This document shows positions 11,341 through 39,104 of a stretch of 64,000 bases of DNA, in pieces. Below the pieces are notes generated by a model. That model had not been told where the DNA came from and did not search any database. It was given only the letters and a program-made list of their open reading frames with translations. The DNA is taken from positions 1-64,000 of the forward strand of contig JAJPEN010000018.1 in NCBI GenBank assembly GCA_021166835.1, in the 5' to 3' direction. Position numbers and translations under genes: made by a program. Each line of letters starts with the position of its first letter. Position 1 is the stretch's first letter. The DNA comes from Burkholderiaceae bacterium (GTDB lineage Bacteria > Pseudomonadota > Gammaproteobacteria > Burkholderiales > Burkholderiaceae).

Positions 11341-11344
<4 letters not shown>

Positions 11345-14166: not shown

Positions 14167-14172
14167 GTCCGG

Positions 14173-14910: not shown

Positions 14911-14937
14911 GAAAACACCGCGGCGGAAACGCCGCGA
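14911..14937 (-). terminator. Intrinsic terminator after formate dehydrogenase
   Basis: On the minus strand a stem CGCGGCG with loop of four bases and CGCCGCG (14919-14936) is followed by a T-rich run (GTGTTTTC). It sits 13 bases after the stop of the formate dehydrogenase alpha gene and before actA, so it should separate the two transcripts. Confidence 0.65.
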
Positions 14938-14949
14938 TCTCCCGCAGCG

Positions 14950-17739: not shown

Positions 17740-19436
<1,697 letters not shown>

Positions 19437-19490: not shown

Positions 19491-21545
19491 TCACTCCACG
19501 AGCGCCTTGAACACAGCGTCAGCCGAGTCCTTGTAGAACTCGATGCTGATCTTCGTCCACAGGTCGTCTGGCAAATCGTTCAACTGGCGGCGCGCTACGA
19601 CGGGCATCAGGATCGTCTGCGCTTGCTTGTCGATCGCGAGTTCGACGATCCGCGCCGCATTGGGAATCAACTCGACCGATCCGCCGAGGTTCAGCGCCCC
19701 GACGACCACCGTTCCACCTCGCGTGTTCTTGTTGAGCAGCGACCCGCACAGGGCGACCAGGACGGGAAGGCCCAGGCCCGCCCCGGCCTTGTCCGAGTCC
19801 ATCGCGCGCATCTGGACCGAGAACTCTTCCTCGCGCGGATTGCGGTCGCCGACAAGCTCCTTCGAGCGCGTGTAGAGGTTCTGCTCGCCGACCTTGACGC
19901 TTTCGCGAAAGGCGGGCGGCGTGGGCTGGTTGAGGATCTTGACGCCGCTGCCGCGCCCGCAGGTGACTTCGATCCGGTAGAGCCCTGCGCCCGTCTCCCC
20001 TGATCCCGGGTTCGCACCCCAAACCTGTCCGGGCGGCAGCGGGTCGGACTCGATCGCCTCGTCGCTGTGCTGCTCAGGCGTGGAGACAAACTGCTCGACG
20101 CCCTCGGAACCGAGGATATAGCTGAAGTGAGTGTTGCGGAACTCGCTCTTGAACACCCGCCGCTGTTGCTCCTTGACCCTCCGACGGGACTCGAGTGCCA
20201 GGCGCACCATCCACTCGAGGTCCTCGTCCGAGACTGGCATCTGGGGGTCCGGGAACAAGAGCTTGGCCAAACCGCTGACTGTCTTGTTCACGGCTTCGAT
20301 GTCGCGACCACTCAGCGCGCCACCAAGATGCACCCGGCTTTGCATGACGGACACACGGTTTCCAGCGCGAAGCCGGTCCCAGCACTCGCTGAGGAAGTCG
20401 CTGACGAGGCCGAAATGGTCGGTCACATGCTCGGTGGGATTCAGCTTCGGGAAGTCCCATCCGGGCACATAGGCGTGCAGACGGTCCATGAAGGCCGTGT
20501 CGTTGCGCATCTCCGGGGGCAGCGGGCTCAGCAGATGTCCGACCCGCTGCTGCTGCTCGACGTCCACGTCCAGGTTGCCGACCATGACCAGGCTGCCGTC
20601 GGCACGGATGTTCTCCTTGCCGCGGCTGAACTGGCCGGACGCCATGTAGCCCTTCATGATGTTGACGCCGTCCTTCTGATCGAACGAGATGCCCGAAACC
20701 TCGTCGAAGCAGACCACGTCGTACTGGCAGACCAGGCCTCTCTGCCCCGTCGAGTTGTTGACGAACATCTTCGCCACCGTCGCCTTGCCGCCGGAAATCA
20801 GGTGCGCGTACGGCGAAATCTGCTGGAACAGGTGACTCTTGCCGGTTCCGCGCGGGCCGAGCTCGACCATGTTGTAGTTGCGTTCGACGAAGGGCACCAT
20901 CCTCAGCAGGACGACCCTTTTCGCGCGATCGGAGAGCGCCGAGGCTTCCAGGCCGATCGAGCGCAGCAGGAAGTCGATCCATTCCGTGACGGAGAAGGTT
21001 TGCCGCGCCTTCATGAGCACATCCAGTACGTCCGACTTCGACATCTGGATCGGCCGCAGGGCGTCCACCTTGAACGGCCGCCCTCCTGTCTGCTGGGCAA
21101 TGACGCCGTCGTAGCTCAGCGTCACCTCTGCATAGAAGCCGTCGGTCAGCATGCGCTCGTTGTCGCGGACCATCTGGTCTTCGATGCGGACATCGCGCAG
21201 CGCAAGGCTCGGCAGCTCGGCCAGGTAGCAGTCGTTCTTCGCGTCGAGCCGGGCGCGAACGATGTCGATCAGCTTGACCGACCCTGTTTCCTTGGCTCGC
21301 GCCTTGAACAGTTCCTCCTCGCCGGTGCGCACCGTACGATCCTTCAGCTGCTTCTCGACGATCTGCAGACCTTCGTTGATCTCGTTCTCGTCGACGCTCG
21401 CGCAGTAGCGGCCCAGCAGGAACTCGACGACGTAGGTCGGCACCGGGTACTGGCGCGAGTACTTGCGTACGAGGTCTTTGCGAACCAGGTATCCGTCGAA
21501 GGCCGACGCCGCCAGGGTGTCCAGTGCATCCAGTTCCATGCTCAT
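19491..21545 (-). CDS. brxL: BREX protein BrxL (Lon-like AAA+ ATPase)
   Basis: A 684-residue last gene of the BREX operon. An N-terminal domain is followed by an AAA+ motor with Walker A GPRGTGKSHLF near residue 231 and Walker B VVCFDEVSG near 281, then a Lon-like C-terminal domain (about 560-684). Where Lon has the catalytic Ser (DGPSAG) this protein reads DKAGAG, and the Lys position in the following GG-containing motif (GGSVEL) is also lost, so protease activity is unlikely. This agrees with the view of BrxL as a DNA-binding motor. The ATG at 21545 overlaps the pglZ stop by 4 bases. Confidence 0.93.
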   Translation of the reverse strand: MSMELDALDTLAASAFDGYLVRKDLVRKYSRQYPVPTYVVEFLLGRYCASVDENEINEGLQIVEKQLKDRTVRTGEEELFKARAKETGSVKLIDIVRARLDAKNDCYLAELPSLALRDVRIEDQMVRDNERMLTDGFYAEVTLSYDGVIAQQTGGRPFKVDALRPIQMSKSDVLDVLMKARQTFSVTEWIDFLLRSIGLEASALSDRAKRVVLLRMVPFVERNYNMVELGPRGTGKSHLFQQISPYAHLISGGKATVAKMFVNNSTGQRGLVCQYDVVCFDEVSGISFDQKDGVNIMKGYMASGQFSRGKENIRADGSLVMVGNLDVDVEQQQRVGHLLSPLPPEMRNDTAFMDRLHAYVPGWDFPKLNPTEHVTDHFGLVSDFLSECWDRLRAGNRVSVMQSRVHLGGALSGRDIEAVNKTVSGLAKLLFPDPQMPVSDEDLEWMVRLALESRRRVKEQQRRVFKSEFRNTHFSYILGSEGVEQFVSTPEQHSDEAIESDPLPPGQVWGANPGSGETGAGLYRIEVTCGRGSGVKILNQPTPPAFRESVKVGEQNLYTRSKELVGDRNPREEEFSVQMRAMDSDKAGAGLGLPVLVALCGSLLNKNTRGGTVVVGALNLGGSVELIPNAARIVELAIDKQAQTILMPVVARRQLNDLPDDLWTKISIEFYKDSADAVFKALVE

Positions 21546-23884
21546 CGCCCTTCTCCGATCGTCGTGGGCCGATAATCGAGCACCCGTCCCGTTGCATCGA
21601 GAACCACTGCCACCGCCGCCGTTCCCTCGTAGTCGTCGCGCTCGACGGCCAGGCTCGCCTGACTGTTGCTGCCCAGATCCTTGGCTATGACGATGCGCTG
21701 CTCTTCCGGATCGGGCTGCTTCCAGTTGCGTCGAAGTTCGACACGCAGCCCGGCGGCATTCGTATCGACAACGACGCGGCAGCGCATTCCCCGCCAGCTG
21801 ATCGTGGTGATACGCGCCTTCAACGCGACTTCGCCCTGCTCCACCAGCATGTCGGGCACGACGCATTCCTGCGGGCTGACCCCGCCATGGGCGTATTCGG
21901 TGTTGACGATGAACGAGCCAATGCCTGGCGGCGAGGCGATGCGTGCGTGGGCGTTCCAGAACCACCCGAACGTGGGCACGTTCGGGTTCGACTCGCCTTG
22001 CACGGAGGCACACCGCGCCCACTTGGTGGCGACCAGGTGAGCCGGCAACTCCACTTTGGGCATGCCGCCCGGCACGAGCAGCCAGCCGTGGTCAGTCACC
22101 ACACGAACGCGCGTCCACCCCGTGCCGAGCAACGCCGAGACACGATCGGCAATCGCCTCGATCTCGACATCGATGTGTCGTACGAGCGACGCCCCCAGCG
22201 AATGGCCCATCTCGTCCAGACGTCCGATCTCTGTCCAGCCACCCTTTTCGGTGTTGGGAGCCAACGTCGTTCCGTCAGCATCAAGTATCTCGACACCATG
22301 TCGAGCCATCTCGTCGCGCAGGCGCGAGGCGCTTACCGGTTGCTTGCTGGCCGCAAGGACGGGGTTGAAATCCTCCGCCGATGCGGCGCCTTCACACGCC
22401 GCATGGGCCGGCGAGGCGAGTGGCTTGGCAGTGGCGGTGACCGTGGGGAACGGCGCAAGGCGATGCCCAAGCTTCACTCTCAGCCCACGTTGCTCCAACC
22501 GCTCCTGAAGCATGCCGGCGACATCGAATCGCAGACCGTCGGCGAACACCAGGCAGGTCTCGGGCTCTGCCTTCACGCCGCAAACCAGCCGGCGGTACTC
22601 GGCCTCGTTCTGGGTGGCCAGTTCCTGGAACCTGCGGGCGGACTTGTCCAACCACGGTGCATAGAGCGCCCGTACTACCTTCGCGACGAGCGCGTTGTCG
22701 GCAGGCGATTTCGACTGGTTCATCGCATCGAGCGCAGCTCGATCACAGCGCCAACCCTCGGTTGCATAGTCAGCCGCCATCGCCCCTAGCGACACGCCGC
22801 CCAGCGCAGAGCGCGCCAAGGTTGCGAGCCTTGCCAGCGGTTCCAGCGCGTGCGCCATCATGCTGTAGCCGAGATCGGCCCAAACCCAGGATCGCCGATC
22901 GCGGTTCTCTGCCTCCAACTCGAGAACCCGGGCACACAGCTTCTCGTGCGGCATGGCCACCGCCGCTTCCAACGCGTATCGGAGCTGAGCCTCCTGCTCG
23001 TCGTTCACCTGCGGCTGTCGCGCTCGGTCGACGAGCAGATCACGCGGCCTGGCGTGGCGAAGCAGCTCGGTGACGCCGGGGTAACCCCGTGGCGCATCGC
23101 GGAACCGGCGCCAGACGTCCTCCCACTTGCCATTGCCGTTGAGCATCAGGTCGCCCGCTCGCGCCGGGCCATCCTTGTCGGGGTCGAACCCGAACTCGCG
23201 GGCGCAGATGTTCCTGAACGCCTCCCATCGGGAAGCATCGCAACGCGCCTGGAACGCTTCGGGCTCGGACATCCAGCCCAGCAGATCGCGGACGGGATCG
23301 CCCACCGAAAGGCGGTCGAAGTCGTCCGCATCCAGTCGGCGCCCTCTGAGCGGCGCAATAGGCTCGGTAGCGAGCACCGGTAACGCGCGCATCAGCGCCT
23401 CACGGGTTCGCATGTCCAGCGACAGGTCGAGACCCAACGCCGCCTCGGAGGTCATGAACGCCTCCACCGTCCAATCCCGACCGTTCTTCTGGTGCCAGAC
23501 CGCGCCGCGGTATTGAAGCTCGATCAACGGGTGGAGAGAGTCGGGGCAGTCTCCGCCCGCGCGCAGTTCCTGACGGCTGACGCCAGGCAAGTACAGGATC
23601 GGCACGGCGCCGGGCGGTGGCGCCAGGTCGGGCAGCGTCCGGTCGACGACGCACTTGAGCCAGATGGCCGGACCCGTGCGGCGCGCCGCGTCATAGGCGC
23701 CGAGCACGTAGAAGTGGGAACACGCCTTCTGCAGAGCCGGCACGAGAGGGCGCCACTGCCCGTCGGCGTCCGGCCACAGCAGCGCCACCGGATCGGCCAC
23801 GCCTTCCGGCGAACGCGTGGCAGCCGACAGCGATGCGACGAGCGCACCGAGCAGAGTCTGCGCATCGCCCGGCGCGGTCTTCAT
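21542..23884 (-). CDS. pglZ: BREX protein PglZ (alkaline-phosphatase fold)
   Basis: A 780-residue protein with the PglZ domain. The metal-site segments VFADGLRFDVAG (near residue 450) and VVTDHGWLLVPGG (near 600) are visible, with an all-alpha and mixed N-terminal half. PglZ is essential for BREX phage exclusion; its role is probably nuclease or phosphatase-like and not settled. The sequence resembles the form named type B, rather than the common type A, of BREX-1 (judged from memory of the family). It is coupled to the ParA gene upstream and brxL downstream by 4-base overlaps, so these are one translational unit. ATG 23884 was chosen for this reason. Confidence 0.9.
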   Translation of the reverse strand: MKTAPGDAQTLLGALVASLSAATRSPEGVADPVALLWPDADGQWRPLVPALQKACSHFYVLGAYDAARRTGPAIWLKCVVDRTLPDLAPPPGAVPILYLPGVSRQELRAGGDCPDSLHPLIELQYRGAVWHQKNGRDWTVEAFMTSEAALGLDLSLDMRTREALMRALPVLATEPIAPLRGRRLDADDFDRLSVGDPVRDLLGWMSEPEAFQARCDASRWEAFRNICAREFGFDPDKDGPARAGDLMLNGNGKWEDVWRRFRDAPRGYPGVTELLRHARPRDLLVDRARQPQVNDEQEAQLRYALEAAVAMPHEKLCARVLELEAENRDRRSWVWADLGYSMMAHALEPLARLATLARSALGGVSLGAMAADYATEGWRCDRAALDAMNQSKSPADNALVAKVVRALYAPWLDKSARRFQELATQNEAEYRRLVCGVKAEPETCLVFADGLRFDVAGMLQERLEQRGLRVKLGHRLAPFPTVTATAKPLASPAHAACEGAASAEDFNPVLAASKQPVSASRLRDEMARHGVEILDADGTTLAPNTEKGGWTEIGRLDEMGHSLGASLVRHIDVEIEAIADRVSALLGTGWTRVRVVTDHGWLLVPGGMPKVELPAHLVATKWARCASVQGESNPNVPTFGWFWNAHARIASPPGIGSFIVNTEYAHGGVSPQECVVPDMLVEQGEVALKARITTISWRGMRCRVVVDTNAAGLRVELRRNWKQPDPEEQRIVIAKDLGSNSQASLAVERDDYEGTAAVAVVLDATGRVLDYRPTTIGEGR

Positions 23885-24858
23885 GGCTGGAGGCCCACAC
23901 GGCGCGCGATTTCCCGACAAAGCGCTTCGAAGTCGTGGTGGCAGCGTTGAACGCTGGCCTGATGCGCGCCGATCGCGCCATCGGCCGAAGTCAGGTCGAA
24001 CATGGGTTTGCGCGCTTCCATCGCCATCGGCATCAGGCTGCGGTAATGCTTGATGCGCTGGATCTGATTGACGTCCGGCGTTGCAACCGCACCGGCCTCC
24101 TCCAGAACGCTCTCCCGATAGGCCACTGGCAGGCGCGCCTGCCACTTCGCGTAGGCCTTGGTCGGTCGGCCCAGGCGCTCCGCGTGCTGCATCAACACGT
24201 AGCCGACCGGCGCCATCCGACCTTGCGGCATTTCACCCAGCGCAGCAGGCGCCTTGGGCAGCGCCTGCTGCCAGGTCTGCCGCCACTGGCGCAGGGTCGG
24301 CCCCAGGTTCTTCAGTCCCTGAAGGGAGAAGAGGTCAGGGGCAACCGGTACCACCACATGGCTGGATGCGACGAGTGCCGCGCGGTTGATCGCGCCCAGG
24401 TTCGGCCCCACGTCGATCAGCACCAGGTCTGCTGCATGTCGCTGTGCCGCCTCGCGGATCACGCGCCAGAAGGCGGTGGTCACGCGGAACGCGCGCTCGC
24501 GGCCTTCGAGGCAGCGCGGCCATTCGGTCGACAGATCGTCCTCGATGCGCGACAGCGCCAGATCGCCGACCAGCAGGCCCAGCTTGTCGGCCATGACCTC
24601 GATGTGCGCGGGCTGGATATCGCCGGTGCCGCCGAACAGCGGCGCCACCGCGCCGTGCAGCGTCTGCGGATGATCGTCGTCGGGCCACAGCGCTTCCAGC
24701 CGTTCCTCGTCCAGTGCCATGATCGACAGGTTGGATTGCGGGTCGAGGTCCACCGCCAGCACCCGATGGCCGAGCTCGGCAAACATCCAGGCCGTGTGAT
24801 AGACGAGCGAGGTCTTGCCCACGCCGCCCTTGTTGTTGAAGAAGGCGATGCTGATCAT
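23881..24858 (-). CDS. ParA/MinD-type ATPase within the BREX operon
   Basis: A 325-residue ATPase. It has the deviant Walker A KGGVGKTS at residues 10-17, the switch segment AVDLDPQSNLS and the Walker B-like VLIDVGPNLG. Proteins of this family dimerise on ATP and DNA and move or assemble cargo. No ParB gene or parS-like repeat is present, and the gene overlaps both neighbours (AlbA_2 protein and pglZ) by 4 bases, so it is unlikely to be a plasmid partition relic. It may position or license the BREX machinery on DNA; that role is inference. Confidence 0.85.
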   Translation of the reverse strand: MISIAFFNNKGGVGKTSLVYHTAWMFAELGHRVLAVDLDPQSNLSIMALDEERLEALWPDDDHPQTLHGAVAPLFGGTGDIQPAHIEVMADKLGLLVGDLALSRIEDDLSTEWPRCLEGRERAFRVTTAFWRVIREAAQRHAADLVLIDVGPNLGAINRAALVASSHVVVPVAPDLFSLQGLKNLGPTLRQWRQTWQQALPKAPAALGEMPQGRMAPVGYVLMQHAERLGRPTKAYAKWQARLPVAYRESVLEEAGAVATPDVNQIQRIKHYRSLMPMAMEARKPMFDLTSADGAIGAHQASVQRCHHDFEALCREIARRVGLQP

Positions 24859-26057
24859 GAGTGCTGTCCCTCGACGATCGCGGCCACGAAGCCCGGCTGG
24901 ACTTCGAAGCGCAACCGCTCTCCCAGGGCCCTGCGCGCGATGGCGATGCCGGCGCCGAAACGCTGCACGTAGCCCAGCGCGCGCAGCGCCTCGGCGAGAT
25001 TGGGGTTGCGGTAATCCGTGACGCCCGGTTGGCCGAAGTTCTCCGGCGTCACGCTGCCGAAAGGCCCGCCTGGGTTGTGGATCTCAATACGATCGTCGAA
25101 CCAGTACACGCGAACCGGGGCATTCGTCGCCTCGTAGCTGCGGTGCATGTAAGCGTTGCGCACGAGCTGTCGCAGCGCACCCATCGGATACGCCTCGTTG
25201 CGGGACTCCTGCACGCTGTCGGCGAAGCGAACGCCGCGCAGGTTGTGAACCTCGAGCTTCTCTTCGAGTCGGCGGATCTGGTCGGCAATGGTGCCGTGGA
25301 TCGGATCCTCGTCGACCACCGGTGCGGTCAGGTCGTTGCCAGCCAGTCTCAAGAACTGCGTGTACGCGCCGGGCAGCCAATCGACCGGCGACTTGCCGAC
25401 CACCAGCAGACCGAGCACGGTAGGCCGCGGTTCGGCATCGCTCAGCACGAGCTTGGTTGCAGCGAGCCTTTGCTCGTAGCTGCGCTCGTTGGCGGTCAGA
25501 ACGTCGCGCGCGACTGCCGCGGGCAGGTACTCCTGCTCGAAGCGCAGCCGATCCAGCTCATCGAGCGTTGCGTCCGCGACCGGCTGGACATCGAAGGGGC
25601 GGTCCCGATGACGCCGTCGTTCATTGAGGATGCGTTCGTCCTGCGCACTCGCCAGCCCACGGCGCGGCCCCCATCGAACATGGATGCGCTGCCTGAAGCG
25701 CACCGGCGGCGAGTCGCACGGCCAGACCGTCACGACCGCCAGGTCGTGGCCGCGCAGATGTCGCTTCTCGACGAGCAGCGTCGGCGGGGGGACGATGTTC
25801 CCGTCGGTTTTGATGTCGGCGAGCTGGCGCAGCAACTCATCGGATACGTCGAACCCGTCAACGGGGGTGCCATCGTCTCTCGCGCCGATGAACACCACTC
25901 CGGGTGATCGGTGACCGGGGAGATCGTTGGCGAACGCGCAGACAGCTTCGCGGACCGTCGTAGGCGCGTCGCCCTTGAACGACTGTTTGCGCTCGACGCG
26001 GTCCGACTCCAGGTCCGCCAGCATCGCGTCGAGCTCGGCATCTGTATATGGCTTCAT
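24855..26057 (-). CDS. AlbA_2 (Schlafen-like) and HATPase-domain protein
   Basis: A 400-residue protein. The N-terminal AlbA_2 domain (about residues 8-125) has the signature ERKQSF, FANDLPG and GVVFIGARDDGTPVDGF. The C-terminal part (about 265-395) has the ALRQLVRNAYMHRSYE and DDRIEIHNPGG motifs of HATPase_c_4 and ends in GAGIAIARRAL, the usual architecture of DNA/RNA-sensing transcription-regulator-like proteins. Such proteins recur in defence loci, but their activity is not established. ATG 26057 is the start of the conserved domain. This gene opens the second half of the island (AlbA_2, ParA, pglZ, brxL), after a 424-base gap, so it may have its own promoter. Confidence 0.85.
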   Translation of the reverse strand: MKPYTDAELDAMLADLESDRVERKQSFKGDAPTTVREAVCAFANDLPGHRSPGVVFIGARDDGTPVDGFDVSDELLRQLADIKTDGNIVPPPTLLVEKRHLRGHDLAVVTVWPCDSPPVRFRQRIHVRWGPRRGLASAQDERILNERRRHRDRPFDVQPVADATLDELDRLRFEQEYLPAAVARDVLTANERSYEQRLAATKLVLSDAEPRPTVLGLLVVGKSPVDWLPGAYTQFLRLAGNDLTAPVVDEDPIHGTIADQIRRLEEKLEVHNLRGVRFADSVQESRNEAYPMGALRQLVRNAYMHRSYEATNAPVRVYWFDDRIEIHNPGGPFGSVTPENFGQPGVTDYRNPNLAEALRALGYVQRFGAGIAIARRALGERLRFEVQPGFVAAIVEGQHS

Positions 26058-26116
26058 CGTCGTCTCCCTATCTCTGCGGCGGCCTGCTCTCGTGGCGCGC
26101 TGCCCAAGCGGTGCCA

Positions 26117-26419
26117 TCAAGGCTGTCTCCTCGTGCCCTGGCGCGGCGCTCGGCGTTGCAACCGCCCCTTGGTCATCTGCTCGATGCGTGCTGCCACCTT
26201 GGCGGCGCGAGCCACGACTCGTCCCACCGCCCTTCGAAGCGAGCAAACCGCTCGCTCGATCATCAGCATCAGTTCGCCCGCGGAAGGCTGAACTGGCTTC
26301 GCAAGGAGCGATAGCAGCGCCTCCCGCTCCTCCACCGCCGGCTCTGATGCGGGTTGCAACAAAAGCTTGAGCTGAACGGCCGACTCGTTCACCGTCGCGC
26401 CCTGATTGCGTTGCACCAT
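26117..26419 (-). CDS. Possible small hypothetical protein in the BREX island
   Basis: A 100-residue open frame in the 424-base gap between trlF and the AlbA_2 gene, on the same strand. A GGGAG lies close before the ATG. The product would be helical, rich in Arg/Ala/Leu, with the amphipathic stretch GELMLMIERAVCSLRRAVG and a very basic tail. No family is recognised. GTG at 26389 is an alternative start. The rest of the gap (26058-26116, 26420-26481) shows no clear gene, terminator or promoter. Confidence 0.4.
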   Translation of the reverse strand: MVQRNQGATVNESAVQLKLLLQPASEPAVEEREALLSLLAKPVQPSAGELMLMIERAVCSLRRAVGRVVARAAKVAARIEQMTKGRLQRRAPRQGTRRQP

Positions 26420-26481
26420 ATGCTCCCAGCCCCATTGACCCGAGTGAGCCGAGTGTTGCGATGGAGAGTTGCCATCGCTGG

Positions 26482-29316: not shown

Positions 29317-32300
29317 CTCGCATCTCCTTTGTGTCGCGCCCGCGCGGCCTGCTTGAAGGTCCGCGTGTAGTGCAGGTCGTTCCAGCGGTTGCCGTCCGGT
29401 TCCTTGCCGCGGCCGCCGAAGTCCTTCTGGTCATCCTTGTTGTCAGGATCCCAGCCCCAGAACCACGGGAAGTCCTCGCGCGGACGCTGCGGCTCCTTGC
29501 CGCGGTCCTTGTCCCAGGTGGTCCTCTTCGGTGCAATTCGCAGGATGCAGGCGCCCTTCGCGCGCGCACCGAGCGGCTTCGCCGTCATGAAGGGACGAAT
29601 GTTGATCCGCACGCCGTCGTTGATGTCCGGCTCCCAGCCGATCGGCTGCTCGGCGAGCGGCTTCCAGCGGACGAAGAGGTCGTAGGGCGGCTCGCCGGCG
29701 AGGATGTTCGTCAACTCGGTCTTGAGATGCTCCGCCGCCGCGATGCGCGCGTCCGCGCCCTCGACCCCAGCCTTCTGGTCGGCACGCTGCCGGTCAATCC
29801 AGTCGCCGAGATAGGAATACAGCAGCTTCTCGAGCGTGCGCCGCCCCTCGCCGTTCGGAGCAGCCAGGCGGTGGTAGTTCACCAACGCATGGAAGCCGTC
29901 GCGGCGGCCGTCCCAGATGTGCCAGACGAAGGGCCGCTGATGGAACAGTTCGCAGTGCTGCTCGAAGAAGCCGTCACGGAGCCAGTCGTCGAGCGTCTTG
30001 CCAGCGAAGCCCGCCTCCGCGAGCAGACCGTCAAGCTTCGCGGCGGACCAGTCGGCGCCGAAGGCGTCGGCGAGCAGTGCCAGCACGCGCGGGGCGGCCG
30101 GCTGCTCTCCCTTCACTGGATTCAACGCGACGATGCCGTCGTGGTCGGCGTGCTTCTCGAGGCCGTCGGGGCCGAGCGCCGGACAGTCAGGAAAACTTGA
30201 CCCGCTCTGCCGTGGCCAGCGATACCCAAGCAGCCGAGCTATGGCGACCTGCAGCGGCTGGCCCGCGCCGGCAGGGAACCCATTAAACAACCACTGCGTT
30301 AGGTCGCTCGAAAAAGGCTTTGGCAAACCGTCCGGATAGTCCCGCGCCGCTACCTTCCGCCAGTGCGCGAGGTCGAAGGGAATCTTTACGAAAGTCTGGT
30401 TGGTCTTGTTTCTCTTCCCATCAACCAATTGAACAGCTGGCAAGAACTCGGCCGATGAGCAAAAGGCCCACAACGCAGGCAAGTCTTTCGGGTCTTCCGG
30501 AATAATTGCGGTGCTACTTTGATCGTATAGCTCGCCTGTGTAGAGGGTGACGGGAAGTGGAACCGTATTCCGCACAGCGATGCCTTTGCGCCCCCATGCT
30601 TCTCTCCCTTTGATATATGCGTAAGGCGCTGTTGCGAGATCCCCATTTCCACCTTCCCATCTGAGAACACCCGTTCTTCCCCCGTAGTGCAGTGTCTCGC
30701 CAGACGTAACCTGAAAAGCGTCCCATGGAAATGAGACTCCCGGTACTTCCCAAAAGCACAAAATGAACCGTGGCGTGTCACCGTTCTGAAGGCCAATGAA
30801 AGCACCGCTCCTCGTCTGCAACAAAGGTGTGGCGCAGTCGCGCGAGAACCCAATCCGTGAGTCCGGGTTCGTAGTCTGAGCATATTGTCCAATTTGAGTT
30901 AACTCGCCGCATCGAATCAACTCTGCCTTGTTTGCGGGCTTTCTCGCCGCCTGAATATCACAGTAAGTGATGCTCTCATTGCCAACCGGCTCGGCGCGTG
31001 TTAGGCAGCTCAAAGCTACGGTGACATTCTCGCCGGAGATGGCTTCAAACGCACCGGGACCAAGCCTGACCACAAAGTTGACTTGCGTCTTGCCAAGAAC
31101 GCTGATCCGAAGATCTCGATAGCTTCCCAGGTAGAGAAAGTGCTGTTGACTGACACAAGCGGATGTCCCGCTCGCCTTCAGAAGCCCGACGCATCGCTGC
31201 AGAAATGCTGTTGCAAGATCCGCGCGACCTTCGGGGAAGTGCTCTTGAATATAGTCCTGCAATTCCGCGCATTGATTGCCGCGGCGAAGAAATGGCACGT
31301 TAGTGGAGACAAGTGTGAATTGCCCGGCGAGAATCTGCGCCGCCTTCGCCAGCCCCTGCGCAGCGACCGCCATTTCCGCGAGTTCCGCCGTCTCGGCCTT
31401 GGCCATCACCTGCGCGAGCAGCGGGTCCAGGTCGTCAAAGCCGTGCTCGATTAGATCGCCACCGGCCGCGCGCGGGTCGATCAGGCTACCCAGCCAAGGC
31501 GCGCGCGCAAAGAGGTCGTACAGCCGCTCGAACCCTCGCTTCATTGCATCCGAGAACAGGTTGTCCTCGGTGCCAAGCAGATCGGTCTTCGGCGGCATCG
31601 GCAGCGCCTGCGCGGCGCGCTCGGCGAGCTTCAACCATTCGGCTTTGGACACACCGAGCGAAAGCCCCGAACAGGCGAGGTGAAGTGCAGGAAGCGTCCG
31701 GTAGCCGATCCGCCGCCAGGCCGCCAGCGCGAGGTTGAACGCGGCAATCTGCGTGCAGCGCGGGTCGATCTCGAGTCCGAACAGGTTGTCGCGCAGCACG
31801 GCTTCGATCGCAGCCTCTGACGAGAGCCGCTCTTCGGCGGCCCGCATCGCCGCGAGCATCGGCAGCGCAAACACCAGGAAATGCCCGCTGCCCATGCAAG
31901 GGTCGAGCAGCGTGATGCCCTTGGCCGCCTTGGGCCACCCATCGAACGTCCCCGCAGCGGGATGCCACGGCTTTCCTTCCTCACGCACGAAGCGCAAGTA
32001 GGTCCACTCGACATCGCCGACCGCGCAGGCGGCGCGCAACTCGTCCTCGTTCGATGCCGACTCGGCGAGATGTGGGCTTGCCGCGAGCACCCTTCCTGCC
32101 CACCACGCGCCCAGCGTGTTGTGCAGCAGAAAGAGCACCATGTAGTCCTCGGTGAACAACTGCGTCACCGCCGGCAGTTCGTCGGCTCCGATCTTTTTCT
32201 CCGACCGGTTGACTTCTTCCTTGCGGTCCGCCTGCCAGTACTGGTACACCCACCCGAGGCTGTCGTCGGCGACGAACACGTCTCGCGGCAGCGCCTTCAT

Positions 32301-32798
32301 CAGATCTTCGAGTGCTGAGCGAGTCTCCGGCGGGAGCGCCACTTCGAGCACCGGATCGCCGGAGCGGAAGATCTGCGGCAGCATGCGCTGCGCGTAGTCC
32401 GCGGCGAGCTCGAGCCAGTCGCGCCCCTCCGCGCGGGCCAGCTCTTCGCACTCCGCCAGAGAGATCGCTACTCCAGACTGCGGCTCGATGAGGAGTTCGC
32501 ACTCGGCCAGATAGCGGGCAAAGAGCATCCGATGCCAGTGCTCGTAGGCGCATTCGGTCGTCAGCCGATCGATGCCCTGAACCCCACGGCGATCGTCACG
32601 CCGGTCACCGAGCTGCCTGCCGTGCGCGCGCAGGCGATTGCGCAGCTCGCGCTCTGCCTTCGTCATGCTCGGCCACGGCTCGTGGTGGTGCACGGCAAGC
32701 TGCTCGATGACCTTGCGTGCGCCGCCCTCGGCGGTGCGGCGGGCCTCTCGCACGGTGTTCTCGAGCGAACGGCGAAGCTCGCGGGTGAGTGTGGTCAT
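29313..32798 (-). CDS. pglX: BREX adenine-specific DNA methyltransferase PglX
   Basis: A 1161-residue methyltransferase that marks host DNA (N6-adenine) for BREX self-recognition. The SAM-binding motif I is DPCMGSGHF (299-307). The catalytic motif IV position reads TNVPF (Asn500) in place of the usual NPPF/Y. The specificity domain lies in the C-terminal half. Bases about 30180-31330 (residues about 490-870) fall to near 50% G+C by eye, against about 65% on either side, and codon use shifts, which suggests recombination of the recognition region. It follows brxC by 13 bases and overlaps trlF by 4 bases. Confidence 0.93.
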   Translation of the reverse strand: MTTLTRELRRSLENTVREARRTAEGGARKVIEQLAVHHHEPWPSMTKAERELRNRLRAHGRQLGDRRDDRRGVQGIDRLTTECAYEHWHRMLFARYLAECELLIEPQSGVAISLAECEELARAEGRDWLELAADYAQRMLPQIFRSGDPVLEVALPPETRSALEDLMKALPRDVFVADDSLGWVYQYWQADRKEEVNRSEKKIGADELPAVTQLFTEDYMVLFLLHNTLGAWWAGRVLAASPHLAESASNEDELRAACAVGDVEWTYLRFVREEGKPWHPAAGTFDGWPKAAKGITLLDPCMGSGHFLVFALPMLAAMRAAEERLSSEAAIEAVLRDNLFGLEIDPRCTQIAAFNLALAAWRRIGYRTLPALHLACSGLSLGVSKAEWLKLAERAAQALPMPPKTDLLGTEDNLFSDAMKRGFERLYDLFARAPWLGSLIDPRAAGGDLIEHGFDDLDPLLAQVMAKAETAELAEMAVAAQGLAKAAQILAGQFTLVSTNVPFLRRGNQCAELQDYIQEHFPEGRADLATAFLQRCVGLLKASGTSACVSQQHFLYLGSYRDLRISVLGKTQVNFVVRLGPGAFEAISGENVTVALSCLTRAEPVGNESITYCDIQAARKPANKAELIRCGELTQIGQYAQTTNPDSRIGFSRDCATPLLQTRSGAFIGLQNGDTPRFILCFWEVPGVSFPWDAFQVTSGETLHYGGRTGVLRWEGGNGDLATAPYAYIKGREAWGRKGIAVRNTVPLPVTLYTGELYDQSSTAIIPEDPKDLPALWAFCSSAEFLPAVQLVDGKRNKTNQTFVKIPFDLAHWRKVAARDYPDGLPKPFSSDLTQWLFNGFPAGAGQPLQVAIARLLGYRWPRQSGSSFPDCPALGPDGLEKHADHDGIVALNPVKGEQPAAPRVLALLADAFGADWSAAKLDGLLAEAGFAGKTLDDWLRDGFFEQHCELFHQRPFVWHIWDGRRDGFHALVNYHRLAAPNGEGRRTLEKLLYSYLGDWIDRQRADQKAGVEGADARIAAAEHLKTELTNILAGEPPYDLFVRWKPLAEQPIGWEPDINDGVRINIRPFMTAKPLGARAKGACILRIAPKRTTWDKDRGKEPQRPREDFPWFWGWDPDNKDDQKDFGGRGKEPDGNRWNDLHYTRTFKQAARARHKGDAR

Positions 32799-32811
32799 GC
32801 GTTTTGCCCTA

Positions 32812-35800
32812 TCAGTTGACCAGCACCGGCCCCTGCTTCAGACTCTCGAGCAGCCTGGATTTCTGGCGCCCGAGCCAGGCATCGACCTCCTGCTCCGATC
32901 GCAACGTGCTGCGTTCGAGGCTGACGGTCTGCACCTTCGGTTCTAACAACTTGGCGGCACGTTCGACGGCCTGCTGGACCCGCCCCGGAATCGCGTCGCG
33001 CTCCGCCAAGGCCACCTTCAACGGGCGGCCCTCGAGGTGCCGGCCAAGCGCCTCATCACTGGACACGTCGGGCTTCACGGGTGCCGTCAGGCCGACCGCA
33101 GCGAGGATGCCGGCCTGCTGCGTCGGGTCGAGCTTGGCCCAGTTCTCGTTGCCCGCCAGCGCGGCGAGCGCCTGGTCGTATGCGGCGGCATGATCGGCAT
33201 GCGCAGCGTTGACGGCCTCTCGCAACAGGCCGGCAATGGCCACCCTAATCGGCGCAACGGAATCCGTCGGCTCCAGGAGCAGGCGGTGGGTGCGAATCGC
33301 CTCGATCTGATCCAGGTGGGGCTGCATTCCCGGCAGATCGCCGGCATGGCGCGCGAGATGCTCGACCACCGCCCACGAAGGCAGGCGCTTCGCGGCCAGG
33401 TCGCGCGCCGCCGTCCAGGCCTTGATGCGCGATTCGAGGTCGGTGGCCTTGTCCTTGATCGCAACGAGCTGCTCGTTGCCCACCAAGCGCTGCATGTCCT
33501 CGATATCCGTCGTAGCCGGCTGCAACGGCAGCGGCGCGTCGCCACCGGCCGCTCGCGCGAGGTTCACCAGCGCGGTCAGGAACTCGGGAGCCTTGGCGCC
33601 TTCTTCGCCGCTCTTGCATTGAACGAGCTGCGTCAGGAGTTTTCGCAGCAGCAGCCGATCCTGGACCGACAGCGTCGCGTGCTCGACGCGGAACTCGGCC
33701 TTGGCGATCTTGTTCTGGTCAAGCTGCCCGAGTGCAATGGCCACGCCGTTGGAGGTGGCCGTGATGTGCTGCGACCGGTGGAGTGCGATCAGTGCCGCGT
33801 CGATCGCGTCCTGCGGCCAGCCATAGGGCGATGCGCGCAGAGCCTTGCGGATTTCTCCGCCGATCTTGCCGGCACCGATCGCTGAGATCACCTGCATGCA
33901 GACCGGATGCTTCTCCGTCGCATCGGCATGGCCGACGGGCTGAAAGGGTTGATCCGCACCGTCGCGCGCGCGCTTGATCGCCGCTTCCCACGCGCCGGAG
34001 TCCGCATCCTTGAAGCGCGGGAACAGACGGACCAACGAGTCGGCGGCGCCGTCGCGGATGCGCTCTTCGAGCGTCAGGCGGATCAGCTCGTTGCCGCCGC
34101 CCTGGAAGACCTTTGCGTTGGCCACGATCTCGCGCACCAGGCGGTCGCGCTCACCCGCCGCCTTCGCGTACCGGCTGTCCATGCTTTGGCGCGCCTCGCG
34201 CCCCTCGTCCCCCGTGGGGATGCCTTTGGCGGCGAGGGTCTGCTGTGCCGCCTCGGCCTCGACGATCAGGCGGCGCAGATCTTCGGCCGACTGGCGCGGG
34301 ATGAAGACGTAGAGGATCGGGCTCGTCGCGCCGGCGGCGCGCGTGGCATCGACCATCTGCTTCTCGGCGGCCGACCAGCCATCCTGGATCCACACTGGGA
34401 TGCTGGCGCCGTCGGTGTCCGGCGGCGTGGCATCGCGCGAGATCAGGAACTGGCGCGGCTCCTTGGCGGCGCCCTGGATCAGCTTGACGGCACGGACGAT
34501 CTTGTCTGTCTCGGAATAGAGGAGCTGGTCGCGCTGGAACTGAACCGCTGCGTCGTCGTTGTTGAGCTTCGTCTGGCGGTTGCGGAACTCGCGGTCCCAC
34601 TCGCTGCCCTCGCGCGTCTGCAGCCGGTACTCGTCGCCCACCTGCATGAGAACGCCGTCCTTGGCCAGCTTCTCGAGAACGGCTCCGACAGCGGAGCGCA
34701 GCTTGCCGTTGTCGGCCGTCAGGTCTTCAACCAGCAGGTCGGCCAGGTGCTCCTTCTTGGCGCGCACGCCGATGTCGGCCCCGCTCTCGCGGGTGAGCTT
34801 TCCGATCAGGAAGACGAGGCCGCAGACACGCTGAGCCAGCGCGCCGTCGGACTTGCCGACCTGGATGATGCGTTCGTTGATCTCACGCAGCAGCACGCCG
34901 GTGTTCACCATTTCGGGCGCGAGCGCCTCGAACAGTTCGTCACCGGGAACCACGGCGCCCAGGGGGCGGCCGGAGATCTTCTTGATGGCGTCGTAAATGA
35001 TGCGAAGCTGGGAGCGCAACTGGCTGTGCGTGCCAGCCGCGTCGATCTGCCGGAAGCAGTTCTCCCAGAACCGCCGGCGAACCGGCAGCAGCGGGTAATC
35101 CTCGACGATGACGGCGCGGTCTTCGACGACTTCACCGATGCGCGAGCCCTGCAACTGCCGCGAGATCTCGCCGGCGTTGGCGTCGAGCAGCTTGCGAACC
35201 TCGCCCACCGACGCGGGCTTCTTGTGCAGCAGGACCTTGCGGGTCACCTGCTCGACTTCGACGTCCGACAGCGGCACGCGGATCGTGAAGCGGTCCATCA
35301 GCTTCTGCAGCAAGGGCACGTCCGTCAGCGCGCTCTGGCCCGCGCCAACGATCATCACCTGGCTGTCGAGCTGCTTGCACACGGCCTCGGCTACCTCGGT
35401 CACGAGCACCGAGCGGTCGTTGGATTCGCCGATGTACTGCTGCACCTCGTCGAGGATGAGCAGCACGCAGGGCGTGCGGCCATCCCGGCCGTGGAGCTTG
35501 AGTGCCTCTTTGACAGTGGAGAGAAACTCTTCGGTCGTGATGTCGCGCGCCATCGGCGGGTAGCTCGCGCGCAGCGTTTGCCGCGCCTCGGCCTCGCTCG
35601 ATGCGTAGCCCGGATCGCAAGCCAGTAGTGCCTTCGCAATCGGGCCGCTGACGTACAGGTTGTTCAGCTCCCGGTCGAATGCCTTGCCGGCGGCCTCGAC
35701 CGAAGACTTGACCTTGTCGAAGTAACCCTGCGAGTACAGCCACAGGCAGAAGCGTGCCTGCGGGTACTGCTCCGGAAGGCCGACGGCGCGCAGCAGGATG

Positions 35801-36258
35801 CCCAGGATCGTGAGCCTGACCTGATCGGTGGTTCCGCTGGGCAGCGAACCCGCCGCCGCGAGCAAGCCGCCGGCGCGCCGGCCTGCGGTGTCGAGCTCGC
35901 GCAGGAGTTCGCGCAACTCGTCCGGCATGGCGGGGACGATGGCTCGCGCAGTCGCCCCATCTGGAAAGGCGGTGTCCTGCCACAGGTGGCACAGCATCTT
36001 CAGCAAGTGCGACTTGCCGCTGCCGAAGAAGCCGCTAACCCATGCGGCTTTCTGGTTGGTGTTGCCCAGACTGTCGAGGTACGAGCGGATGATCCTCTGC
36101 ACGCCGTCGGCGTACTGGCCCTCGCACACGAACGTCGAGAGTTCGCCGCGCAGTTCTTCGAGTGCCTTTGCGTTATGGCTATCGACGATCCGCGCCTGCC
36201 CCTGGTTGACCAGCGGGAAGGTATCCGGATCTCGCTGCAGAACGTCCTTGATCTTCAT
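32812..36258 (-). CDS. brxC: BREX protein BrxC (P-loop ATPase)
   Basis: A 1148-residue ATPase (PglY/BrxC family). Walker A is GFFGSGKSH at residues 76-84 and Walker B is VLLILDEVQQYIG near 270. The large helical C-terminal part has no other motif recognised by eye. BrxC is needed for phage exclusion in BREX-1 and probably forms the scaffold for PglX and PglZ. ATG 36258 (MKIKDVLQRDP) is the normal family start and overlaps the brxB stop by 4 bases. Length is normal. Confidence 0.95.
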   Translation of the reverse strand: MKIKDVLQRDPDTFPLVNQGQARIVDSHNAKALEELRGELSTFVCEGQYADGVQRIIRSYLDSLGNTNQKAAWVSGFFGSGKSHLLKMLCHLWQDTAFPDGATARAIVPAMPDELRELLRELDTAGRRAGGLLAAAGSLPSGTTDQVRLTILGILLRAVGLPEQYPQARFCLWLYSQGYFDKVKSSVEAAGKAFDRELNNLYVSGPIAKALLACDPGYASSEAEARQTLRASYPPMARDITTEEFLSTVKEALKLHGRDGRTPCVLLILDEVQQYIGESNDRSVLVTEVAEAVCKQLDSQVMIVGAGQSALTDVPLLQKLMDRFTIRVPLSDVEVEQVTRKVLLHKKPASVGEVRKLLDANAGEISRQLQGSRIGEVVEDRAVIVEDYPLLPVRRRFWENCFRQIDAAGTHSQLRSQLRIIYDAIKKISGRPLGAVVPGDELFEALAPEMVNTGVLLREINERIIQVGKSDGALAQRVCGLVFLIGKLTRESGADIGVRAKKEHLADLLVEDLTADNGKLRSAVGAVLEKLAKDGVLMQVGDEYRLQTREGSEWDREFRNRQTKLNNDDAAVQFQRDQLLYSETDKIVRAVKLIQGAAKEPRQFLISRDATPPDTDGASIPVWIQDGWSAAEKQMVDATRAAGATSPILYVFIPRQSAEDLRRLIVEAEAAQQTLAAKGIPTGDEGREARQSMDSRYAKAAGERDRLVREIVANAKVFQGGGNELIRLTLEERIRDGAADSLVRLFPRFKDADSGAWEAAIKRARDGADQPFQPVGHADATEKHPVCMQVISAIGAGKIGGEIRKALRASPYGWPQDAIDAALIALHRSQHITATSNGVAIALGQLDQNKIAKAEFRVEHATLSVQDRLLLRKLLTQLVQCKSGEEGAKAPEFLTALVNLARAAGGDAPLPLQPATTDIEDMQRLVGNEQLVAIKDKATDLESRIKAWTAARDLAAKRLPSWAVVEHLARHAGDLPGMQPHLDQIEAIRTHRLLLEPTDSVAPIRVAIAGLLREAVNAAHADHAAAYDQALAALAGNENWAKLDPTQQAGILAAVGLTAPVKPDVSSDEALGRHLEGRPLKVALAERDAIPGRVQQAVERAAKLLEPKVQTVSLERSTLRSEQEVDAWLGRQKSRLLESLKQGPVLVN

Positions 36259-36818
36259 TGCACTCCTCCGTCCCCGTGCAGGGTGATGGGCACGGCCATG
36301 TAGTTCCAGCCATCGCGGGCATCCAGCAGGCGGTAGTTGCTGCGCTCGAGATGCCCGGGAAAGAACACGACGAGGCGACCCTTGATGTCGGACTCGACCA
36401 TCTTCAGGATGTGCGACAGCCGAGCGAAGCCGAACAGCGCGCCAACACCGAACAGCGCGACGACGGAGTCGTCGGTGATCTCGGGGCCATTTAGGACCTC
36501 GCAGAGCCGTTCGGCCACGTACTCGGGGAACTCGGCCTGCAGCTTGAGCTGAAGGTCCTCGGGCGCGGCGAAGTACTCCTCGCGGTAGTCGTCGGCTGCC
36601 ATCCATGCGGCGAATGCCTCGGAGATATCCAGCTCGTGCCAGTCGTGCCCGGCCTGCCGCGTCGCCGTCTCGAACGCCACCTTCCTCGCCCTCAGCGTCC
36701 GTTCGAGTTCCTTGTCGTACACGAGCATGACCACACGCTGAGCACCGGAGACGGTTCGCTGCCAGGGCGTCGCGATGTGCCGACCAAAACGATCTGCCAG
36801 GTCTTCGATGCGGGCCAT
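36255..36818 (-). CDS. brxB: BREX protein BrxB (DUF1788)
   Basis: A 187-residue protein of the BrxB (DUF1788) family. The C-terminal segment GALFGFARLSHILKMVESDIKGRLVVFFPG is characteristic, ending with the conserved aromatic WNYMAVPI. The start ATG at 36818 lies one base beyond the brxA stop, so translation is coupled. Its biochemical role is unknown, but it is required in BREX-1. No cofactor motif is visible. Confidence 0.92.
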   Translation of the reverse strand: MARIEDLADRFGRHIATPWQRTVSGAQRVVMLVYDKELERTLRARKVAFETATRQAGHDWHELDISEAFAAWMAADDYREEYFAAPEDLQLKLQAEFPEYVAERLCEVLNGPEITDDSVVALFGVGALFGFARLSHILKMVESDIKGRLVVFFPGHLERSNYRLLDARDGWNYMAVPITLHGDGGVQ

Positions 36819-36819
36819 G

Positions 36820-37617
36820 TCAGCTGCGTCCTTCTGCAGGGTCGAGTCGATCGAGCGCCAGGTCCACGACGTCGCCCGCGATGCGCAGATCGATGAGCCC
36901 GATGCGCTTGGCTTCGACAGCGAGATCGCGCGCGGCGGCAGGCGTGCAGTCGAGCAGCGACACCCAGCCGGTCGCGAAGAGCGAGGCGCCGCGAAACCCG
37001 ACGGCGTGACCGAGATACAGGCCGAAGGCGACGCTCCCGGGGGTCGCGCGCACCAACGCACGCTTCTTGAAGGTTCGCCCTACGAGGTGCCCTGCCTGCT
37101 CCCACGAGCTGGCGACATTGCGCACGACCTTGTCCAGCGTTGATTCGCTGAGGCGCTCATCGACGTTGTCCTTCAGGGCCGCCCTGATCGCGTCGCGCTG
37201 CACGTCGCTTCCAGCGGCCAGCGCCAGCACGGGCGGCACGGTCGCGGCAAGCAGCGGATCGCGTGCGAGTGCGCATTGCAGCGCGAGCAGCGGACGGCCG
37301 GATACGTCGACGGGCCAGAGACGCCGAAGCACCCGAAAGAGCGGAATTCGCGGATCCAACCCGTAGAGCTCGCCGAGCCTCTGGTTGCTGAGCCTGCGGG
37401 TCGCGGTGGTCGCCTTGCCGAGGCAGTTGCCTTCGACGATCGCCGCCGCGTAGTCCTCCCGGGATGCCGTCTCCGGCGCCGCCGCAAGCACCGCCGCGAG
37501 TTCGTCGAACATCATCGTTCGGCTCGTGTGGGTGCCTTTGGCTCCAAACCGAAAACCCACCTTTGCGGCGCGATCCGAGATCCCCGTCGCCGGGAATAAT
37601 GGAGAGGATGAAGCCAT
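36820..37617 (-). CDS. brxA: BREX protein BrxA (DUF1819)
   Basis: A 265-residue first gene of the BREX operon, BrxA (DUF1819) family, a small helical DNA-binding protein. The middle carries TTATRRLSNQRLGELYGLDP and PLFRVLRRLWPVD, typical of this family. ATG 37617 was taken because the frame begins there without a better internal start; only a weak AAGG precedes it. The paired palindromic repeat (37639-37722) lies immediately upstream, the nearest copy 22 bases from the ATG, so it could control the whole operon. Confidence 0.85.
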   Translation of the reverse strand: MASSSPLFPATGISDRAAKVGFRFGAKGTHTSRTMMFDELAAVLAAAPETASREDYAAAIVEGNCLGKATTATRRLSNQRLGELYGLDPRIPLFRVLRRLWPVDVSGRPLLALQCALARDPLLAATVPPVLALAAGSDVQRDAIRAALKDNVDERLSESTLDKVVRNVASSWEQAGHLVGRTFKKRALVRATPGSVAFGLYLGHAVGFRGASLFATGWVSLLDCTPAAARDLAVEAKRIGLIDLRIAGDVVDLALDRLDPAEGRS

Positions 37618-37739: not shown

Positions 37740-39104
37740 CTACAGCGCGACCTCGACCGTTTCGCCGTGCTCCGGCACGCGCGCCGGCCAGCCCAGCTCG
37801 TCGACGATGCGATGGCGCAGCCGGTCGGCCGCCTCGGGTTCGCCATGCACGACGTAGACCTGCTGCGGCGGGCGATGCAGCCGTCGCATCCAGTCGAGCA
37901 GTTCGTCGGCATCGGCGTGCGCCGAGAAGCCGTCGAGCTGCGTTACCGATGCGTTCACCGGATGCCATTCGCCGTGGATCTTCACCTCGCGCGCGCCGCC
38001 CACCAGATGCGCGCCGCGCGTGCCGCCCGCCTGGAAGCCCGCGAAGACGACGTGATTGGCCGGATCGGGGAGCAGGCGCTTCAGGTGATGCAGCACGCGT
38101 CCGCCGGTGGCCATGCCGCTGGCCGAGATCAGGATCGACGGCACGTGCAGTTGCGCGAGGCGCTTGGACTCCTCGGGCGTGTTCACGAAGCGGGCGCCGC
38201 GATAGATCGCCTCGCACTCGGCGTCGCTCAGCCGGTGATCGCCGTTGAAACGCCGATACAGGCGCGTGGCGTCGATCGCCATCGGGCTGTCGAGATAGAC
38301 CGGCAGCGGCGGAATCGAGCCGGCCTCGCGCAGCCGATGCAATGCGACGAGCAGCGATTGCGCACGGCCCACCGCGAAGGACGGAATCAGCACGGTGCCG
38401 CCGCGTGCGGCCGTGTCGCGGATCACACCGGCGAGCTGCGCGAGCGCCTCGTCGATCGACGCGTGCCGGCGATCGCCGTAGGTGGACTCGATGAGCAGCG
38501 TGTCGGCGAATTCCGGCACCTGCGGCGCGCGCATGACGAAGTCTTCGTTGCGCCCGATGTCGCCGCTGAAGACGAGCGTGCGGCCGTCGCGCTGCAGGAC
38601 GACGCTGGCGGCGCCCAGCAGGTGCCCGGCCGGAACGAAACGCGCACGGATGCCGCCGGGGAGATCGAAGGGCGCACCGAAGCGCTGCACGTGGAAGCGC
38701 GCGAGCGCCCGTTCGGCGTCGGCGCTCTCGTACAGCGGCAACGCCGGACTGTGCTTCGAGAAGCCGTGCCGATTGGCGAACTCGGCCTCCTCCTCCTGCA
38801 GCCGCGCGCTGTCGTGCAACAGGATCCCGGCCAGCTCGCGCGTGCCCTCGGTGGCGAGGATCGGTCCGCGGAAGCCTTCGCGCACGAGCTTCGGCAGCCA
38901 GCCGGAGTGATCGAGATGCGCGTGCGTCAGCACCACTGCGTCGATCGTCGCGGGCGCCACCGGAAACGGCGCCCAGTTGCGCTCGCGCAGCTTCTTGAAG
39001 CCCTGGAACAGGCCGCAGTCGACGAGCAGCTTCGCTTCGCCGGTTTCGAGCAGGAAGCGCGAACCGGTGACGGTGTCGGCCGCGCCGAGGAAGGCGAGCT
39101 TCAT
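37740..39104 (-). CDS. Beta-CASP metallo-beta-lactamase-fold hydrolase (RNA-processing type)
   Basis: A 454-residue protein with the MBL metal motif HAHLDH (His61, His63, Asp65, His66) and the beta-CASP/RMMBL region. It has the segments LLIESTYGDRRH, SASGMATGGRVLHHLK and DGFSAHADADELLDW near the C-terminus, as in archaeal/bacterial CPSF-like nucleases. The likely role is RNA endo/exonuclease in the cytosol. It is on the same strand as dnaJ and begins 19 bases after it, so it can be part of the heat-shock transcript. It borders the BREX island on its downstream side. Confidence 0.9.
   Translation of the reverse strand: MKLAFLGAADTVTGSRFLLETGEAKLLVDCGLFQGFKKLRERNWAPFPVAPATIDAVVLTHAHLDHSGWLPKLVREGFRGPILATEGTRELAGILLHDSARLQEEEAEFANRHGFSKHSPALPLYESADAERALARFHVQRFGAPFDLPGGIRARFVPAGHLLGAASVVLQRDGRTLVFSGDIGRNEDFVMRAPQVPEFADTLLIESTYGDRRHASIDEALAQLAGVIRDTAARGGTVLIPSFAVGRAQSLLVALHRLREAGSIPPLPVYLDSPMAIDATRLYRRFNGDHRLSDAECEAIYRGARFVNTPEESKRLAQLHVPSILISASGMATGGRVLHHLKRLLPDPANHVVFAGFQAGGTRGAHLVGGAREVKIHGEWHPVNASVTQLDGFSAHADADELLDWMRRLHRPPQQVYVVHGEPEAADRLRHRIVDELGWPARVPEHGETVEVAL

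Follow-up and report, generated by a model that had tools for sequence, protein, structure and literature searches.

The 64,000-nucleotide (nt) stretch of contig JAJPEN010000018.1 from a Burkholderiaceae bacterium (the window) carries a type 1 bacteriophage exclusion (BREX-1) island at 19491-37617 of the minus strand, an operon in which nine genes are firm, all on that strand, in the order brxA, brxB, brxC, pglX, TrlF, AlbA_2-GHKL, ParA, pglZ, brxL. The TrlF, AlbA_2-GHKL and ParA genes, which sit between pglX and pglZ, are very probably separable accessory cargo in a BREX slot and not parts of BREX itself. The AlbA_2-ParA pair is a separable, movable two-gene cassette found mostly outside BREX. 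An earlier note on this DNA, made from the sequence alone, had taken the tight junctions of the extra genes as a sign that they are working parts of the system.

The two genes of the pair are closely coupled. In the window, the ParA gene overlaps both AlbA_2 and pglZ by 4 nt, and an overlap of exactly 4 nt was found in 49 of 51 full AlbA_2-ParA pairs (65 loci searched, 64 with AlbA_2 and 59 with ParA). An alignment of the window AlbA_2 protein with 23 of the 120 listed matches (A1) was used for a genome-wide scan, which returned 38 loci with 61-91% identity in the best segment; BREX-1 genes were present in three of them (L001, L002 and L020). A ParA match was seen beside AlbA_2 in 32/38, the others being L017, L022, L023, L024, L033 and L037; the L037 contig stops just past AlbA_2. 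In L033, the ParA position is occupied by a different partner of 413 amino acids (aa) (11206-12447), which overlaps AlbA_2 by 4 nt and has no Pfam match at 0.001. AlbA_2 was detected in 11/369 genomes, with ParA downstream for 10/10 full-length matches; two AlbA_2 fragments in one further genome of this sample had no ParA seen beside them. Searches anchored on ParA found it in 19/399 genomes of one order (20 matches, AlbA_2 adjacent to 19) and in 10/396 genomes of another phylum (11 matches, AlbA_2 adjacent to all 11). AlbA_2 or a remnant of it adjoins ParA in 30 of these 31 ParA-anchored loci; it is broken or matched only in part in five, and one locus lacks it. Two different loci, L001 (2329-3969) and L135 (about 1131-2084), hold a further, divergent AlbA_2 protein next to the pair.

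The contexts of the 31 ParA-anchored loci were BREX in three, BREX-related (DUF499/DUF1156) in five, neither in 18, and neither with short flanks in another five, where "neither" stands for loci in which none of the BREX or BREX-related queries scored above 80 bits in the fetched DNA (at most about 9 kb per side). Two of the three BREX cases, G001 (the L002 genome) and G002 (the L020 genome), are not independent, as they were search centres chosen for carrying the pair in BREX; L090 repeats L001, and L100 repeats L003. Altogether, 23/31 loci, five of them short-flanked, show neither BREX nor BREX-related genes in the fetched DNA. Since the pair occurs mostly without BREX, the inference of working BREX parts fails on the note's own terms.

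The neighbours of stand-alone pairs include alaS/recX, relA/spoT, and a PolB-type exonuclease together with a tRNA-uracil-methyltransferase-like gene; PADLOC matches were few among 83 flanking proteins. No ParB was found among the neighbour families listed (25 of 51). At the thresholds used, plasmid records gave no AlbA_2 match and phage records no ParA match. Among seven IMG/VR contigs that have an AlbA_2 relative, one, which is classed as viral, contains the pair (L141, 10001-12138; 45% and 57% identity); L142 has AlbA_2 (44% identity) without a ParA match behind it. L145, an IMG/VR contig also classed as viral, holds a complete BREX-1 set (1712-15851), in which the pglX-pglZ interval contains a distant AlbA_2 protein (24% identity) but no ParA that could be recognised.

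Four BREX-1 loci were found to carry the pair, namely the window, L001, L002 and L020. The full TrlF-AlbA_2-ParA order, which the earlier note had proposed to look for in other genomes, is present among these only in the window: L002, a close relative, has the pair and lacks TrlF, while other genes take the place of TrlF in L001 and L020. G533 (L051), another close relative, whose pglZ is 85% identical to that of the window, has BREX-1 free of cargo, with neither TrlF nor the pair. On the AlbA_2 tree (52 rows), at least two label changes are required for BREX-1, the simplest account being two entries, and four for the DUF1156-type rows, among which L097 owes its label to fragments. Between L020 and the window, identity is 74-81% over the cassette, 51-53% for pglX and pglZ and 59-62% for brxA, brxB and brxC; because brxL is 83% identical, this comparison alone does not prove cassette transfer. 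In L020, which is an acidobacterial BREX-1 locus, the gene between pglX and AlbA_2 (8821-10014) encodes 397 aa and resembles SprT weakly, at a score under the Pfam cut-off.

The pglX-pglZ interval measures at least about 0.8 kb in 21 of 22 BREX-1 loci with both genes visible (the window and 21 of 23 further loci, measured between match edges), and 104 nt in G533. A match in this last locus to the AlbA_2 paralogue of L001 was dropped, as it lies inside the pglX match and comes from an out-of-frame extension of the paralogue's open reading frame (ORF). The cargoes found elsewhere in the slot include GmrSD, a PtuA-like ATPase, OLD-TOPRIM with UvrD and GmrSD, a YhcG-type nuclease, NERD-kinase-helicase, a TrlF relative (L088, 28% identical), McrBC-like genes and DarT-like genes. 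Several of these unrelated cargoes (GmrSD, PtuA-like, OLD-TOPRIM, McrBC-like) join pglX or pglZ by overlaps or few-base gaps. The tightness reported in the earlier note is real, and its count of six out of eight junctions becomes seven out of eight with corrected gene starts (five 4-base overlaps, one 1-base gap and one 13-base gap), the sole loose junction being the 424 nt from TrlF to AlbA_2. Tight spacing was nevertheless rejected as proof of BREX membership: since unrelated cargoes are equally tight, it suggests co-expression. When pglZ or pglX served as the anchor, the pair was present in 2/9 genomes with a visible interval, one of which is a search centre (a tenth, G646, ends at pglZ), in 0/7 plasmids (an eighth pglZ record, from Polaromonas, is not included) and in 0/3 viral contigs showing both pglX and pglZ (another two stop short of pglZ). 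L001, L002, L020 and L145 were found through AlbA_2 and are therefore unusable for the frequency of AlbA_2 in BREX intervals.

The island holds a complete BREX-1 operon with PglZ of type B (Table 1). All the gene identities given in the earlier note (six BREX core genes, a TrlF-like gene, an AlbA_2/HATPase gene and ParA) were confirmed by PADLOC, NCBIfam and Pfam matches, with scores well above anything that chance would give. The longest-ORF starts lay too far upstream for brxB, brxC, pglZ, brxL and AlbA_2 and were corrected.

Table 1. Genes of the BREX-1 island and its cargo, in operon order.
Feature	Position	Strand	Length	Matches and remarks
brxA	36820..37617	-	265 aa	PADLOC BrxA PDLC02450, 323 bits
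brxB	36255..36818	-	187 aa	Corrected start; PADLOC BrxB, 250 bits; Pfam BrxB, 30.9 bits (cut-off 26.8)
brxC	32812..36258	-	1148 aa	Corrected start; NCBIfam NF033441, 767 bits (cut-off 400); PADLOC, 1475 bits
pglX methyltransferase	29313..32798	-	1161 aa	PADLOC PDLC02528, 1480 bits, full length
TrlF-family PHP + ABC/SMC-like ATPase	26482..29316	-	944 aa	NCBIfam NF045780, 582 bits (cut-off 350)
Possible orphan ORF	26117..26419	-	100 aa	Inside the 424-nt TrlF/AlbA_2 gap; coding-like composition
AlbA_2 (Schlafen-type) + GHKL ATPase	24855..26057	-	400 aa	Pfam SLFN_AlbA_2, 41.8 bits; HATPase_c_4, 54.8 bits
ParA-type ATPase	23881..24858	-	325 aa	Pfam AAA_31, 100.5 bits; KGGVGKT Walker A
pglZ, type B	21542..23884	-	780 aa	Corrected start; NCBIfam NF033450, 870 bits (cut-off 400); PADLOC PglZ, 907 bits
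brxL	19491..21545	-	684 aa	Corrected start; NCBIfam TIGR02653, 634.8 bits (cut-off 628.25); PADLOC, 984 bits

As in other BREX type 1 systems, all six core genes are in order, and PglZ-B, BrxC and BrxL pass curated cut-offs; a P-loop, GSGKS, was found in the brxC product. PglX, in contrast, stays below the NCBIfam BREX-1 PglX cut-off (294 vs 500 bits), and its motif IV (residue 499) reads NVPF, whereas the PglX of E. coli and Salmonella carries NPPY in the published text available to us. Motif IV reads N-[VL]-[PS]-[YF] in all loci where it is readable, that is, 22/23 (L001, L002, L020, L083-L088, L145 and L148-L159), with 19 NVPY, one NVPF, one NLPY and one NVSY. We take this motif to resemble the N-L/I-P-Y/F of KsgA/Erm rRNA adenine dimethyltransferases.

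On one flank of the island are the housekeeping genes hrcA, ferrochelatase, grpE, dnaK and dnaJ, with an MBL-fold RNase-like gene; NuoE/F-like and molybdopterin oxidoreductase genes are found on the other. The MBL-fold gene (37740-39104) was rejected as part of the island because the listings for the BREX loci examined contained no match to it, and so were the upstream chaperone genes, the neighbours here being grpE-dnaK-dnaJ. The region beside the island at 8743-19436 is a respiratory cluster with cytochrome c, NrfD/Fer4, multihaem cytochrome, molybdopterin oxidoreductase and NuoE/F-like genes, the NrfD/Fer4 genes being presumably alternative-complex-III-like.

The TrlF cargo is of a known antiviral kind. 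Like the TrlF/Ppl anti-phage ATPases, the window protein passes the curated TrlF cut-off and matches the Ppl model (NF042955) over its full length; it differs from them in scoring 510 bits against a Ppl cut-off of 1000 and in being located inside a BREX operon. The strings HTHT, VTDHN, LAHV, GSDAHH, GGRGTGKS and LDQPEDDL are present in the protein and are presumably PHP and ABC motifs. TrlF relatives (E 1e-60) were detected in 3/399 genomes of the order, none of them among the genomes with pglZ matches, which argues against a tie between TrlF and BREX. In L114, the neighbours of the TrlF relative include a GmrSD_N protein and a type I methyltransferase, and L116 is a partial TrlF match. In L115 (7535-11714), outside BREX, a TrlF relative (50% identity) has a different AlbA_2 protein immediately behind it (25% identity); TrlF and AlbA_2-type genes therefore meet more than once. 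Our literature search yielded no paper joining BREX with TrlF or the ParA family, TrlF with phage, or Ppl with a PHP domain.

A promoter and terminator scan of 25900-26700, around the loose junction, gave no candidate. The possible 100-residue protein that the earlier note had placed in the island does have a coding-like composition, with GC by codon position of 0.72/0.50/0.73 and a codon score of 0.104 (wrong-frame windows reach at most -0.070, and the lowest window in the true frame has -0.126). However, it has no homologue: its sole database match is the window itself (1/32 candidates), and none was listed in L001-L081 (E 1e-4), including the pair-bearing L001, L002 and L020. The two options for this ORF are an orphan gene and a remnant.

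For AlbA_2, a 526-aa start was rejected on the basis of homologue lengths of about 400 aa (among the 120 best homologues listed, 87 have 400 aa, 27 have 399 and six between 389 and 428) and of the non-coding GC pattern of the extension (0.72/0.72/0.53). The Pfam scan (cut-offs 25.3 bits for SLFN_AlbA_2 and 26 for HATPase_c_4) was made on this 526-aa reading, which contains the 400-aa protein, and detected no HEPN family. E17 and E22 are invariant (52/52 rows), and D61 is found in 48/52 (3 N, 1 E); these residues can be likened, by sequence spacing only, to the active site E205/E210/D248 of SLFN13. The AlphaFold2 model reached a pLDDT of 90.3 (45 in a first run with a shallow alignment), and the predicted fold is SAMD9/Schlafen-like, the best-matching SAMD9 domain being 7ksp, a DNA-binding structure. 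Residues 229-400 of the model match the SpoIIAB and HK853 structures. Residues 170-220 are helical, and the Pfam scan, in which this region was not searched alone, gave no wHTH family.

PADLOC gave only partial matches, to Aga/pAgo models for AlbA_2 (at most 52.5 bits) and to PDC-M28B models for ParA (at most 32.8 bits); AlbA_2 had no NCBIfam match at 0.01, and no PADLOC or NCBIfam model covers AlbA_2-ParA as a system. By sequence, the closest solved structure to AlbA_2 is 3lmm, DIP2311 of Corynebacterium diphtheriae, and the closest to ParA is 3pg5, which we take to be DIP2308 of the same species. If this identity is right, C. diphtheriae may possess a distant counterpart of the pair.

The explanation that we favour, with a probability of roughly 0.5 as a whole, is that the window carries a BREX-1 slot filled with two back-up defence modules, one of them working through an RNase and ParA. 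It builds on gene content, separability, pairing, repeated entry (by the tree), conserved active-site residues and predicted fold. The first module is the single TrlF-family PHP/ABC-ATPase gene, and the second is AlbA_2-GHKL with ParA, joined by an ATGA-type overlap and occurring stand-alone, in DUF499/DUF1156 loci and in BREX-1. Unmodified DNA would be met first by BREX, and the modules would act when BREX is evaded or inhibited; the option of a back-up effector, raised in the earlier note, fits such separable defence cargo.

AlbA_2 would be an RNase of the Schlafen/SAMD9 kind, cutting tRNA or other RNA and halting translation or growth of the infected cell, and its GHKL domain could bind ATP and gate the RNase; the pair would then probably be an abortive, tRNase-like effector under the control of the GHKL and ParA ATPases. 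Known ParA relatives form ATP-dependent dimers on DNA; here ParA may restrain, license or position the RNase, which might be released upon phage damage to the nucleoid, ATP depletion or a block of BREX. We place this RNase-plus-ParA mechanism slightly short of even odds. More tentatively, the two genes could make up an uncatalogued immune system that works autonomously. A nucleoid-binding ParA would switch or position a Schlafen/SAMD9-like tRNase, which would be set free when nucleoid integrity or ATP is lost during infection, and the system would serve both alone and as a plug-in back-up in BREX-1 and DUF499-centred systems.

The extra genes could instead be functional BREX subunits, AlbA_2 sensing or binding DNA and a ParA motor positioning or recruiting BREX complexes, which is the reading preferred in the earlier note. 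The junctions are tight on both sides, and the L001 and L002 pairs group with that of the window in a single, supported BREX-1 clade, so that the association has persisted in a lineage; nonetheless, with most pairs outside BREX, neither TrlF nor the pair in the G533 BREX-1 operon, and unrelated, equally tight cargoes filling the same interval, this is very improbable. An addiction module is also an unlikely explanation, though less so: an RNase toxin with a ParA/Soj-type antitoxin, kept mainly by addiction, would be analogous to the proposal for HEPN MAE_18760-ParA dyads with a ParA/Soj partner in the part of PMC3710099 available to us. In 4/31 loci (L105, L108, L132 and L139), an intact ParA stands beside an AlbA_2 that is broken or matched only in part, which is what an earlier loss of the toxin would leave, but this count is biased, the loci having been found through ParA. 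Moreover, intact AlbA_2 exists without ParA in L017, L023 and L024, for which reason ParA was rejected as a strict antitoxin, and the toxin-first order is less usual in classical type II pairs.

It is improbable, finally, that the pair is a non-defence DNA-binding regulator, or a chromosome or replicon maintenance pair, inserted by chance in some defence loci. Such a role would agree with the names transcriptional regulator or RecG-type helicase that some sources give to AlbA_2 relatives, with the DNA-binding nature of 7ksp, with partitioning as the best-known role of ParA, and with the housekeeping genes beside stand-alone copies. It agrees less well with the patchy presence in the three genome samples, with more than one entry into BREX-1 and BREX-related loci, with the conservation of E17, E22 and D61, and with the absence of ParB from the listed neighbour families. 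If the RNase-plus-ParA mechanism is right, a chromosome-partition-type ATPase would serve bacterial immunity by switching a tRNase whose animal relatives are the antiviral proteins Schlafen and SAMD9. The unassigned genes between pglX and pglZ, frequent in BREX loci, can be separable and movable modules, one of which now has a definite anatomy, that of a 4-nt-coupled Schlafen-like protein/ParA pair; tight operon spacing calls for caution and is no proof of a shared mechanism.

The slot itself has been described. According to the text available of Went et al. 2024 (PMC11341690), of about 9000 genomes in which pglX and pglZ are co-localised, about 7000 have one or more genes between the two, about 5000 of these have no known defence system, and PARIS, BrxU and others are defence genes embedded there. 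The window uses the same interval in the same kind of arrangement, whereas TrlF with AlbA_2-ParA is not among the systems named in that text; the earlier note's suggestion that similar extended loci may be known holds for the slot. Schlafen-HK-wHTH proteins were presented by Rakesh and Krishnan 2026 as back-up RNases of BREX/BR systems in at least 1017 taxa (PMC12839542, main text as available). Like them, the window AlbA_2 protein combines a Schlafen domain with a minimal histidine-kinase-like ATPase in a BREX locus; unlike them, it has a nearly constant ParA partner and most sampled copies are outside BREX/BR, and ParA (as a whole word), PHP and TrlF are absent from that main text, the supplements not being covered.

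Also related to the pair in arrangement are the HEPN MAE_18760-ParA/Soj dyads of Anantharaman et al. 2013, in which, in the portion available, the HEPN protein is of RNase type and some are fused to Schlafen (PMC3710099). The window shares with them a ParA/Soj-type gene adjacent to a putative RNase, as do 30/31 ParA-anchored loci, but its protein has no HEPN match in Pfam and is fused to a GHKL ATPase instead. No Schlafen-ParA system without HEPN turned up in our literature search, in which long match lists were viewed in part. BREX-1, the slot and the TrlF kind of cargo are known; what is new here is the Schlafen/GHKL-ParA cassette, uncatalogued to date.

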